Assembly: GCA_947474495.1 (NCBI GenBank)
Contig: CANJIM010000016.1
Span: forward strand, 1-47,176
Length of the DNA stretch: 47,176 nucleotides
Reading direction: 5' to 3'
Origin: Rhodospirillaceae bacterium
GTDB taxonomy: Bacteria; Pseudomonadota; Alphaproteobacteria; SMXQ01
Each line of letters opens with the position of its first letter. Within the stretch, counting starts at the first letter, position 1. The translations under genes and the position numbers were made by a program. This document shows, one piece after another, positions 22,301-45,932 of the stretch. The notes beneath the pieces were generated by a model. It was not told the DNA's origin. It was given only the letters and a program-made list of their open reading frames with translations, and made no database searches.

Positions 22301-22381
22301 GCAAGGGCAGGGTAGGCGGACCGGGCCTAATCAGTTATGGTGTCGCCGTTTGGCGCACCTCGCCGCGCCTGGAGGATTATG

Positions 22382-22810
22382 ATGGCTCAGGAAGTCTCGA
22401 CGCTCGAAAAGCTCTGTCTCGACAAGGGCATGAAAATGACCGGCCAGCGCCGCGTCATCGCGCGGGTGCTATCCGACGCCGAGGATCACCCCGACGTCGA
22501 AGAGCTGCATCGCCGCGCCTCGGCCATCGATCCACGCATCAGCATCGCCACGGTCTATCGCACCGTCCGCCTGTTCGAAGAAGCCAACATCCTGTCGCGC
22601 CACGAGTTCGGCGACGGCCGCGCGCGCTATGAGCGCGCCCCGGACAGCCACCACGACCATCTGATCGACATCAAGAGCGGCAAGGTTATCGAGTTCCACA
22701 ACGAGGAAATCGAAGCCCTGCAGCGCGAAATCGCCAAGCGCCTCGGATTTAAGCTGGTCGACCATCGGCTCGAATTGTTCGCCGTGCCCCTCAAGGGCGG
22801 CGACAATTAA
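22382..22810 (+). CDS. Fur family metalloregulator (Fur or manganese-sensing Mur)
   Basis: A 142-residue Fur-family repressor: winged helix with ISIATVYRTVRLFEE (residues 53-67), hinge, then the metal-binding HHDH at 90-93 and a C-terminal dimerisation domain. The CxxC that holds structural zinc in E. coli Fur is replaced by IDIKSG, as in Rhizobiales orthologues. Those often respond to manganese and are called Mur. Irr at 44845 is probably the main iron regulator here. ATG 22382 lies six bases after GGAGG (22371-22375); the preceding in-frame ATG 22379 is nearly equal, and ATG 22337 is unlikely. Confidence 0.92.
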   Translation: MAQEVSTLEKLCLDKGMKMTGQRRVIARVLSDAEDHPDVEELHRRASAIDPRISIATVYRTVRLFEEANILSRHEFGDGRARYERAPDSHHDHLIDIKSGKVIEFHNEEIEALQREIAKRLGFKLVDHRLELFAVPLKGGDN

Positions 22811-43243: not shown

Positions 43244-44641
43244 GTGAAGACGCTCAAGACGTTGCTTATCTCGGGACGCGAAGCGCTACCCCTCGTCGAA
43301 GGCGGCAAGGGTATCGCCGTCTCCAACGGCGAGTCGTCGGGCGCCTGGGCGAGCGCCGGCGGCGTCGGCACCTTCTCCGGCGTCAATGCCGACTCCTACG
43401 ACGCCAACGGCGACATCATTCCCGTCGTCTACAAGGGCCGCACGCGCCGCGAACGCCACGAAGAACTGATCGCCTACGCCATCCAAGGCGGCATCACCCA
43501 GGCCCGCATCGCCCATCAGATGGCCGGCGGCGCCGGCCCGATCCACATGAACATCCTGTGGGAAATGGGCGGCTCGGAACGCATCCTCAAAGGCGTGCTC
43601 GAAGGCGCCAAGGGCTTGATCCAAGGCGTCACCTGCGGCGCCGGCATGCCCTACAAGATGGCCGAAATCTGCGCCAGCTTCGGCGTCTACTACTATCCCA
43701 TCGTCTCGTCGGCGCGCGCCTTCCGCGCATTGTGGAAGCGCGCGTATTACAAGTTCTCCGACTGGCTCGGCGGCGTGGTCTACGAAGATCCTTGGCTCGC
43801 CGGCGGCCACAACGGCCTGTCGAACAGCGAAGATCCCAACCAGCCGCAAAGCCCCTATCCGCGCGTTGCCGAGCTGCGCGCGCTGCTGCGCGAAGTGGGC
43901 CTACCGGAAACGCCGATCGTCATGGCCGGCGGCGTGTGGAATCTGCGCGAATGGGAGCATTGGCTCGACAATCCGGAAATCGGCCCGATCGCCTTCCAGT
44001 TCGGCACGCGGCCGCTGCTGACGCAGGAAAGCCCGATCTCCAACGAGTGGAAGCAGAGGCTGCTGACGCTCGAAGAGGGCGACATCTATCTCAACAAGTT
44101 CAGCCCGACCGGCTTCTATTCGTCGGCGGTGAAGAACGATTTCCTCAACGATCTGCGTGGCCGCAGCGATCGCCAGGTGGCTTACAGCCACGAAGCGGTC
44201 GGCGAACATGACACGTCCTTCCCGGTCGGCGCCCGCGGCCGCGAGGTCTTTCTCACGTCGCATGACGCCGAAAAGGCGCGCGGCTGGGTTGCCGCCGGCT
44301 ACGACATGCCGCTGCGCACGCCGGACTCGACCCTGGTGTTCGTCACGCTGCCCGATGCGCGCCAGATCCGCACCGATCAGATCGAGTGCATGGGCTGCCT
44401 GTCGCACTGCCATTTCTCGAATTGGGCGCAGAACGACGAAGGCACCACCGGCCGGACGCCCGACCCGCGCTCCTTCTGCATCCAGAAGACGCTGCAGGCG
44501 ATCAGCCATGGCAGCGAGGTCAAGGACCAGCTGATGTTCGCCGGTCACAACGCCTACCGCTTCAAGACCGACCCGTTCTACGCCAACGGCTTCATTCCGA
44601 CGGTGCGGCAACTGGTCGAGCGGCTACAAACCGGCGACTGA
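43244..44641 (+). CDS. Nitronate monooxygenase / NAD(P)H-dependent flavin oxidoreductase family protein
   Basis: A 465-residue TIM-barrel flavoprotein of the 2-nitropropane dioxygenase superfamily (GITQARIAHQMAGGAGPIHM, then IVMAGGVWNLREWEHWL and FQFGTRPLLT, the FMN phosphate-binding region). Typical members are 320-380 residues. This one continues for about 100 residues, including C382-x2-C385-x3-C389 and C412, a pattern that could bind a metal or Fe-S cluster. GTG 43244 is the start. The reaction is not certain: nitronate oxidation, enoyl reduction and quinone reduction all occur in the superfamily. The gene is monocistronic between the pnp terminator and irr. Confidence 0.8.
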   Translation: MKTLKTLLISGREALPLVEGGKGIAVSNGESSGAWASAGGVGTFSGVNADSYDANGDIIPVVYKGRTRRERHEELIAYAIQGGITQARIAHQMAGGAGPIHMNILWEMGGSERILKGVLEGAKGLIQGVTCGAGMPYKMAEICASFGVYYYPIVSSARAFRALWKRAYYKFSDWLGGVVYEDPWLAGGHNGLSNSEDPNQPQSPYPRVAELRALLREVGLPETPIVMAGGVWNLREWEHWLDNPEIGPIAFQFGTRPLLTQESPISNEWKQRLLTLEEGDIYLNKFSPTGFYSSAVKNDFLNDLRGRSDRQVAYSHEAVGEHDTSFPVGARGREVFLTSHDAEKARGWVAAGYDMPLRTPDSTLVFVTLPDARQIRTDQIECMGCLSHCHFSNWAQNDEGTTGRTPDPRSFCIQKTLQAISHGSEVKDQLMFAGHNAYRFKTDPFYANGFIPTVRQLVERLQTGD

Positions 44642-44754
44642 GTTCCAGGTTTATTGTCATATCGGGCAGAAACCCCTGTGGGCTCAAGGCCTTGGCCCCT
44701 GCGCGTTCCTTTGAGTAGTTCCAGAACGCGGCAAAGGGCCCTGTTTCTTTTAGC

Positions 44755-44782
44755 TTTAATTTAATCGTCCACAGCCCTATAT
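44755..44782 (+). promoter_or_regulatory. Putative irr promoter
   Basis: TTTAAT (44755-44760), 16 bases, CTATAT (44777-44782) lies about 65 bases before irr in a clearly AT-rich stretch. A near-consensus CtrA box (TTAG-N7-TTAA, 44750-44764) overlaps the -35. Confidence 0.5.
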
Positions 44783-44844
44783 AGAGCCAGTGGAGGCGCG
44801 CGGTCGTTGCGCGACAGCCTCCGGAAAGAATTGGGAAGTGTGAC

Positions 44845-45264
44845 ATGACCAGCATGGATCGGCCTTTCAGCCGCGTGCTTGATCGCCTCAAGGATGCGGG
44901 CCTGCGCCCGACCCGCCAGCGCTTGGCCCTCGCCAAGCTGCTCGCGGAAGCGGGCGACTGTCATATGACCGCCGAGCAGCTGCACGCCCAGTCGCAGGGC
45001 GCCGGCATCCGCGTGTCGCTCGCCACCGTCTACAACACGCTGCACCAGTTCACCGAAGCGGGCATCCTGCGCGAGATCGTCGTCGACGCCGGCCGCTCGT
45101 ATTTCGACACCAACGTGAGCGACCATCACCATTTCTTCTTCGAAGATTCGAGCCAGCTCCAGGACATCGACGGCGCGTCGGTGACCATCTCGAGCCTGCC
45201 GCAAGCGCCGCATGGCACCTCGGTCAAGCGCGTCGACGTCGTCATCCGCGTCAAGCAGGACTGA
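44845..45264 (+). CDS. irr: Iron response regulator Irr (Fur family)
   Basis: Irr is the alphaproteobacterial Fur-family regulator that responds to haem status rather than free iron; it represses or activates haem, iron-storage and Fe-S genes when iron is low. The 139 residues have the winged helix (SLATVYNTLHQFTEAGILRE) and the diagnostic HHH at 94-96 in DHHHFFFED. The haem regulatory CP motif of Bradyrhizobium Irr is not present: the region reads GDCHMTAEQL with Cys39 but no following Pro. Rubrerythrin and an Fe-S protein follow, consistent with iron and peroxide control. Confidence 0.93.
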   Translation: MTSMDRPFSRVLDRLKDAGLRPTRQRLALAKLLAEAGDCHMTAEQLHAQSQGAGIRVSLATVYNTLHQFTEAGILREIVVDAGRSYFDTNVSDHHHFFFEDSSQLQDIDGASVTISSLPQAPHGTSVKRVDVVIRVKQD

Positions 45265-45329
45265 TTCGCCGCGCCCGGCTGACGGCTGCGAGCGCCTCTC
45301 ATTTTCCATATATTACTAGCCCTTCTATT

Positions 45330-45354
45330 ACAGTTTAGATTTTCTCTAAACTGT
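45330..45354. promoter_or_regulatory. Irr-box-like palindrome at the rubrerythrin promoter
   Basis: ACAGTTTAGA-TTTTC-TCTAAACTGT is a perfect 10+10 bp inverted repeat. Its core TTTAGA-N5-TCTAAA resembles the iron control element bound by Irr. The right arm abuts TTGACG (45354-45359), which with CATAAA 17 bases on (45377-45382) forms a good promoter for rubrerythrin. Binding here would block polymerase, so repression is expected. Confidence 0.65.
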
Positions 45355-45515
45355 TGACGGGGATGGCCGTTTGCGCCATAAAGGGCATCAGGTCGCCGTC
45401 GGAACCCATCCGCGTGCCCTGCCATCGCCGAGCGTCATGACGCGCGACCGATGATCCCAAGATTCAAAAACCGGCGCGATCATCACAGGGCGCGCCCAAC
45501 ATCAGGAGAGAGACC

Positions 45516-45932
45516 ATGGCCAATCTGAAAGGCAGCAAGACCGAAGAGAGCCTGAAGGCCGCGTTCGCCGGCGAATCGCAGGCCAACCGCCGTTATCTGT
45601 ACTTCGCCCAGAAGGCCGACGTTGAAGGCTTCAACGACGTCTCTGCCGTGTTCCGCTCGACGGCGGAAGGCGAGACCGGCCATGCCCACGGCCATCTCGA
45701 ATTTCTCGAGGCCGTCGGCGACCCGGCGACCGGCAAGCCGATCGGCGACACCAAGCTGAACCTCGCCGCCTCCATCGCCGGCGAGACGCACGAATACACC
45801 GACATGTATCCGGGCATGGCGAAGACCGCGCGCGAAGAAGGCTTCGACGAAATCGCCGACTGGTTCGAGACCTTGGCTAAGGCCGAGAAGTCGCACGCCG
45901 GCCGTTTCCAGAAGGCCCTCGACTCGATCTAA
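45516..45932 (+). CDS. Rubrerythrin (di-iron domain only)
   Basis: A 138-residue ferritin-like di-iron peroxidase that reduces hydrogen peroxide. The di-iron ligands are visible as Glu20, Glu53-x2-His56, Glu90 and Glu93, and Glu124-x2-His127. The C-terminal rubredoxin domain of classical rubrerythrin (about 190 residues) is absent, so electrons must come from another protein. AGGAGAGAG before ATG 45516 is a strong ribosome binding site. The gene lies between irr and an Fe-S protein and follows an Irr-like box. Confidence 0.92.

Follow-up and report, generated by a model that had tools for sequence, protein, structure and literature searches.

Within the window, that is, the whole 47,176-nucleotide stretch of DNA analysed here, the gene irr (44845-45264, plus strand) codes for a Fur-superfamily iron response regulator of 139 amino acids, assigned through NCBIfam and Pfam (FUR) and the presumed binder of the element described below. 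It is followed on the same strand by rbr (45516-45932), the gene of a short rubrerythrin of 138 amino acids without a rubredoxin domain (Pfam Rubrerythrin, 103.4 bits). The irr product scored above the cut-offs of two NCBIfam models, i.e., 210.8 bits for IrrA (NF045678, cut-off 150) and 189 bits for Irr (NF045677, cut-off 170). It displays HHH at residues 94-96, in keeping with the HXH haem-binding motif, the outer histidines of which recur in 82 of the 82 Irr proteins encoded next to rbr in the comparison below, and it possesses a single cysteine and hence no CxxC zinc site. The rbr product aligned over residues 1-137 with the rubrerythrins of PDB entries 9onm, 4di0 and 8fuh (E about 1e-72); its rubrerythrin domain takes up residues 11-134 of 138, and it is without the additional membrane iron-export domain that defines MbfA. 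Three FUR-family proteins were found in the genome of the window: besides Irr, there is a second regulator, Fur/Mur-like, in the window itself (22337-22810; 98.9 bits to a Fur model, cut-off 146) and a third paralog on contig C35.

Between the two genes lies the inverted repeat ACAGTTTAGA-TTTTC-TCTAAACTGT (45330-45354, no strand assigned), whose arms of 10 nt each (45330-45339 and 45345-45354) were 100% complementary and 5 nt apart in an inverted-repeat search of the window. It encloses the core TTTAGA-N5-TCTAAA of a putative Irr box, or ICE (45334-45350, TTTAGATTTTCTCTAAA, likewise without strand). The consensus of the ICE is TTTAGAA-N3-TTCTAAA. The earlier note had placed a palindrome with this core directly 3' of irr and ahead of the rubrerythrin gene, and both its position and the core, matched at 12 of 12 positions, are confirmed; the description as a perfect 25-base palindrome holds for the two 10-bp arms and is slightly overstated for the whole, the central TTTTC not being self-complementary. 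The likeness to the ICE pointed out in that note also held, the consensus being borne out by the conservation set out below.

Perfect 10-bp arms with a spacer of at most 8 bp are not rare in this 47-kb window (8 listed, at 6 places), and the unusual feature is therefore the sequence and not the symmetry. At up to two mismatches, TTTAGA-N5-TCTAAA has a single match in the window, against a mean of 0.12 in shuffles, 11 of 100 of which held at least one such match, and the core at 45334-45350 is the sole exact match across the 2.99-Mb genome. Its inner bases are T and C, as against the usual A..T, with C in that place in 3 of 78 loci; perfect TTTAGAANNNTTCTAAA, from which the box differs at these inner bases, was absent from a scan of the same genome. 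Looser searches of this genome (G000) revealed no enrichment: at up to one mismatch the 17-mer core gave 3 sites, as did its reversed control, and the 15-mer ICE gave 12 sites against 39 for the control. Since near-matches were not enriched genome-wide, only placed hits were followed. Gene context was read for those of the 12 15-mer sites that lie on contigs C16 (the rbr site), C62 (two), C118 and C61, those on C7, C14, C20, C29, C74, C87 and C99 being left out of this reading. The C61 site falls between ORFs resembling an RluD-type synthase and an RpoH-type sigma factor (both named by eye), and no iron link was seen in these adjoining ORFs.

The palindrome abuts the predicted -35 of rbr, just as had been claimed. 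The hexamer TTGACG (45354-45359, plus strand) overlaps the palindrome by a single base, its final one, and is followed at a spacing of 17 bp by a predicted weak -10 hexamer, CATAAA (45377-45382, plus strand), which agrees with the consensus at 4 of 6 positions. A strict promoter scan accepts only T as the final -10 base and so reported none at CATAAA. Counted from a putative start near 45389, the box would extend from about -59 to -35, with its centre at about -47.

For comparison, we assembled the best 80 of 587 confirmed rbr relatives together with 30 more from the 38 of 61 genomes that gave a match, a sample that leans to close relatives of rbr because the best 80 were used. The stretch examined ahead of each rbr was up to 300 bp long (148 bp only for L079), and 109 of the 110 loci were used; L098, with an upstream region identical to that of L073, was left out. 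We called irr adjacent where tblastn gave it 60 bits or more on the same strand and no more than 600 bp away, a rule by which L112, with its irr about 1.4 kb upstream and mostly beyond the fetched stretch, was classed as non-adjacent. So defined, irr stands just upstream of rbr at 82 of the 109 loci, including the window (L084) and its sister genome (L085).

Among these 82 irr-adjacent loci, drawn from the best 80 of 587 relatives plus 30, the core was matched at 10 or more of its 12 positions in 70 (1.76 in dinucleotide shuffles), at 11 or more in 39 (0.1) and perfectly in 20 (0), while 12 loci fell below 10 of 12. Related sequences inflate such locus counts; after merging by detectable upstream DNA homology, 47 of 59 cluster representatives still carried at least 10 of 12. 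The spacing within the box is specific: a spacer of 5 gives the 70 of 82, and none of the alternatives between 0 and 11 exceeds 13. The promoter geometry is conserved too. TTGAC follows the box by 2-6 bp in 72 of the 78 irr-adjacent loci of this sample whose box reaches at least 9 of 12, against an expectation of about 0.02 per locus at the rate of TTGAC in these regions, and the offset is most often 3 bp (49 of 78, the window included). In the 72 loci the -10 spacing, taken as the best of 15-19 bp, was most commonly 17 bp (36 of 72) and fell within 16-18 bp in 67, and the -35 was near consensus, with TTGACA or TTGACG in 52. The palindrome is identical at 25 of 25 bases in the sister genome (G001), versus 198 of 225 across the remaining intergenic stretch; since the two genomes agree over much of the leader as well, this comparison is weak when taken alone.

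Boxes were also seen before irr, with at least 10 of 12 positions in 26 of 80 loci versus 1.2 in mononucleotide shuffles. SAR11 loci such as L014, L017, L024, L025, L026 and L039 bear ICE-like boxes of 11 of 12 there, suggesting that irr may be autoregulated in those genomes; for irr of the window, where the best upstream match is 9 of 12, autoregulation is not claimed. Two perfect ICEs at a distance of 32 bp flank the -35-like TTGAC of rbr at L096 (G059:C7:94959-95007), and at L058 the box scored as second is probably the true one. Five loci labelled as gamma- or proteobacterial (L008, L009, L022, L064 and L074) have boxes with the inner bases C(T/C)-N-AG, e.g., TTTAGACTGAGTCTAAA, in place of AA-N-TT; an Irr-like protein scoring 109-137 bits, short of the IrrA cut-off, is encoded in four of the five genomes, the exception being that of L064.

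Loci in which irr and rbr are separated offer a view of the partner of the box. Among 27 non-adjacent loci, 12 have a box of at least 10 of 12, and 11 of the 12 genomes with a box encode elsewhere an Irr-like protein scoring 100 bits or more, versus 4 of the 15 without (Fisher p 0.0014). This 100-bit threshold was set once the scores had been seen, at a drop from 108.9 to 68.2, and the genomes include many MAGs. The exception with a box and no such protein is L064; an Irr-like protein without a box is found at L033, L037, L069 and L079, the last with its short upstream region. This co-occurrence constitutes the best sequence-based evidence here for Irr as the partner, and the palindrome, as a candidate operator, is very probably a genuine and conserved one for Irr. 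Fur-family boxes look alike and the genome has three paralogs, so one might think of the Fur/Mur-like regulator at 22337-22810 or the third paralog on C35 as the protein served by the box; yet box presence tracks Irr-like proteins, while other FUR-type matches (about 45-68 bits with the Irr model) turn up whether or not a genome has the box, and we hold this reading to be very improbable. We also rejected, as most improbable, the idea that irr ends in a transcription terminator or RNA hairpin formed by this repeat. The repeat folds well as RNA (z -2.94), but its stem is A+T-rich with no T-run after it, and a terminator scan of 44640-45520 found no intrinsic terminator. The box is kept, moreover, in genomes that have no irr upstream. 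At the five core pairs it is the letters themselves that are conserved: 1 of 390 cells holds a compensatory pair, and 39 of 78 loci keep the outer pair. So little compensatory change is what a site read by a protein, but not a stem in RNA, should show.

Perfect TTTAGAANNNTTCTAAA occurred at 14 sites in 12 of the 61 genomes scanned, and the reversed pattern at 5 sites in 4 other genomes of the same set. By coordinates, 7 of the 14 perfect ICEs stand before rbr, one promoter having two of them, and a further 2 before ahpC. One precedes a ferritin-domain gene resembling Dps, another a gene for a Dyp-type peroxidase, and a third the gene of an Rrf2 regulator, behind which comes an ORF resembling a cysteine desulfurase (named by eye); one lies near sufB, between an aspartate dehydrogenase gene and an unassigned ORF preceding sufB, and for the remaining one, in G049, the gene is not clear. 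In the genome of the window, the ICE-like sequences TTATAATTATTCTAA and TTAGAGCGGTTCTAA, 66 bp apart (contig C62:10282-10362, L126), flank the promoter of an AhpC-family gene that is followed by a CMD-family gene (AhpD-like, named by eye), and the same 66-bp pair is present in G001 and G043. Among AhpC relatives of at least 58% identity, 13 of 14 of which were read, 5 had a box of at least 10 of 12 and 8 had none (raw counts). A further ICE-like box precedes a gene for a Dps-like ferritin (contig C118:3928-3942, L121), also in G001; the protein scored 76.5 bits with the Dps model, below the cut-off of 114. These dps and ahpC boxes match 10-11 of 12 positions and were picked post hoc from the unenriched scan. 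The second ferritin-family protein and the COQ7-like protein of this genome, considered as MbfA/Bfr targets, gave no lead.

The explanation that we favour, and consider reasonably probable, is that the palindrome is an Irr operator (ICE) at which Irr, binding at low haem or iron, most likely represses rbr. An Irr dimer from the adjacent irr would bind the palindrome when haem or iron is low, cover the upstream edge of the -35 and most likely hinder RNA polymerase, so that rubrerythrin stays low; with plentiful haem or iron, or upon peroxide damage to Irr, Irr would leave and rbr would be made. The site, where it stands relative to the predicted promoter, its conservation and its co-occurrence with Irr are shown here; what we infer is that Irr binds, where transcription starts, which signal acts and, least certain of all, that the effect is repression and not activation. 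The earlier note had likewise predicted repression by Irr under iron scarcity, and the part of this claim concerning the identity of the Irr box and its link to rbr draws good support from conservation, spacing, co-occurrence with Irr and the genes behind ICEs, while repression is the somewhat likelier direction of control.

On that direction, the literature points both ways. ICEs are bound by apo-Irr, haem abolishes the binding, and the position of the ICE sets whether Irr represses or activates (PMC7762939, PMC5587712). Repression seems the better supported of the two by a modest measure, and activation at low iron, with Irr on the same box contacting polymerase from just upstream of the -35, seems rather unlikely. 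Repression is somewhat likelier because of the promoter architecture, for which we count the near-consensus -35, the paired ahpC boxes and second boxes of at least 9 of 12 within 60 bp downstream, found in 14 of 78 loci versus 2.15 in mononucleotide shuffles, although 12 of these 14 are related SAR11 genomes; by analogy, the repression of mbfA and bfr by Irr in Bradyrhizobium (PMC4902296) also counts somewhat in its favour. Activation can appeal to the tight phasing to TTGAC of a box just upstream of the -35, and to the statement, in PMC7762939 and PMC5587712, that direct activation is commoner for Irr than for Fur or DtxR. It can also appeal to the Pelagibacter rbr SAR11_0399, which rose 1.57-fold (P 0.025) in iron limitation (PMC2864753). 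The SAR11 loci that we examined, other than that strain's own, mostly share the same box-promoter architecture, and this rise counts against repression, as does the unlike geometry of R. sphaeroides mbfA, whose mapped start falls within its box (PMC3413700). The rise is small, however, and comes without an irr mutant, and mbfA of R. sphaeroides rises similarly, about 1.5-fold, in the iron-limited wild type although it is about 8-fold higher without Irr (PMC3413700); a modest rise of rbr is thus compatible with repression. A near-consensus -35, furthermore, would seem to need no activator, the downstream second boxes of SAR11 and G059 stand close to the -10 or beyond it, and the making of a di-iron protein during iron scarcity would be physiologically odd.

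A different matter, compatible with repression, is the signal. The box might chiefly be a peroxide switch in which Irr acts in the manner of PerR, rbr, ahpCD and dps form a peroxide regulon, and iron or haem is a co-signal, a reading that we entertain as a tentative possibility. His40, Asp88, His94, His96 and Asp107 are present in all 82 adjacent Irr proteins (best 80 of 587 plus 30) and align with residues 37, 85, 91, 93 and 104 of PerR 2fe3, namely His37, Asp85, His91, His93 and Asp104, which we take to be its five regulatory metal ligands. That Irr keeps these five and that ICE-like boxes stand before ahpC and the dps-like gene, the latter box being kept in the sister genome, raises the thought that the switch may respond to peroxide too, and that three FUR-family proteins were found in the genome tells in the same direction. 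Against this stand the imperfect, post hoc choice of those two boxes, the 8 of 13 closer AhpC relatives without a box of 10 of 12, and the PerR models of NCBIfam, none of whose cut-offs was reached (best 78.1 bits versus 250). Differing from PerR of Bacillus subtilis also in its single cysteine and in the lack of a CxxC structural zinc site, Irr would act at TTTAGA-N5-TCTAAA, unlike the PerR box, TTATAATNATTATAA. It nevertheless shares with that regulator the same five residues and, by prediction, the alkyl hydroperoxide reductase and Dps-like targets described in PMC3184428, where His37 and His91 of PerR are reported to be oxidised. B. japonicum Irr is degraded on exposure to peroxide (PMC4902296), and a shared aspartate and overlapping targets have been noted for Irr and PerR (PMC8638967). 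A peroxide-responsive role of this Irr is, on these grounds, plausible.

Set beside the ICEs of Bradyrhizobium and Rhodobacter (mbfA, bfr, ccpA), the box resembles them in lying in the promoter of an iron or peroxide gene, with Irr binding here predicted. It differs from them in its inner bases, T..C, and in its target, a short soluble rubrerythrin adjoining irr and not the membrane ferritin MbfA; and whereas the start of R. sphaeroides mbfA maps inside its box (PMC3413700), the box here abuts the -35 from upstream. It is closest to SAR11 and other, mostly alphaproteobacterial, irr-rbr loci, in which irr is followed by rbr and the box usually stands 3 bp before TTGAC, except that the second box often carried by SAR11 promoters is not present in the window. 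In the portions of the literature searched, no description of an ICE before this short rbr was found, and an earlier prediction of it as an Irr target is possible; the Bradyrhizobium Irr target blr7895 has been called rubrerythrin-like (PMC3413700, PMC6515984). What we have before us is very probably an element of a known kind; the gene behind it is one for which those portions yielded no ICE description and to which the known Irr target blr7895 is related.

One may go further and speculate, with as much doubt as attaches to the peroxide signal, that a PerR-like Irr with a haem or iron co-signal runs a compact regulon (rubrerythrin, AhpC/AhpD-like and Dps-like proteins) through -35-phased ICEs, that irr-rbr is a widespread and perhaps ancestral alphaproteobacterial Irr unit, and that gamma-labelled genomes hold a sister version of it, with an Irr-like protein and a CT-N-AG box. 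More immediately, a widely conserved irr-rbr pair, that of SAR11 included, is tied to a defined candidate operator with a fixed promoter geometry, and the sign and the signal of Irr control thereby become testable outside the rhizobia. If it is true that Irr here answers peroxide as PerR does, this would help to explain how the two regulators relate to each other.
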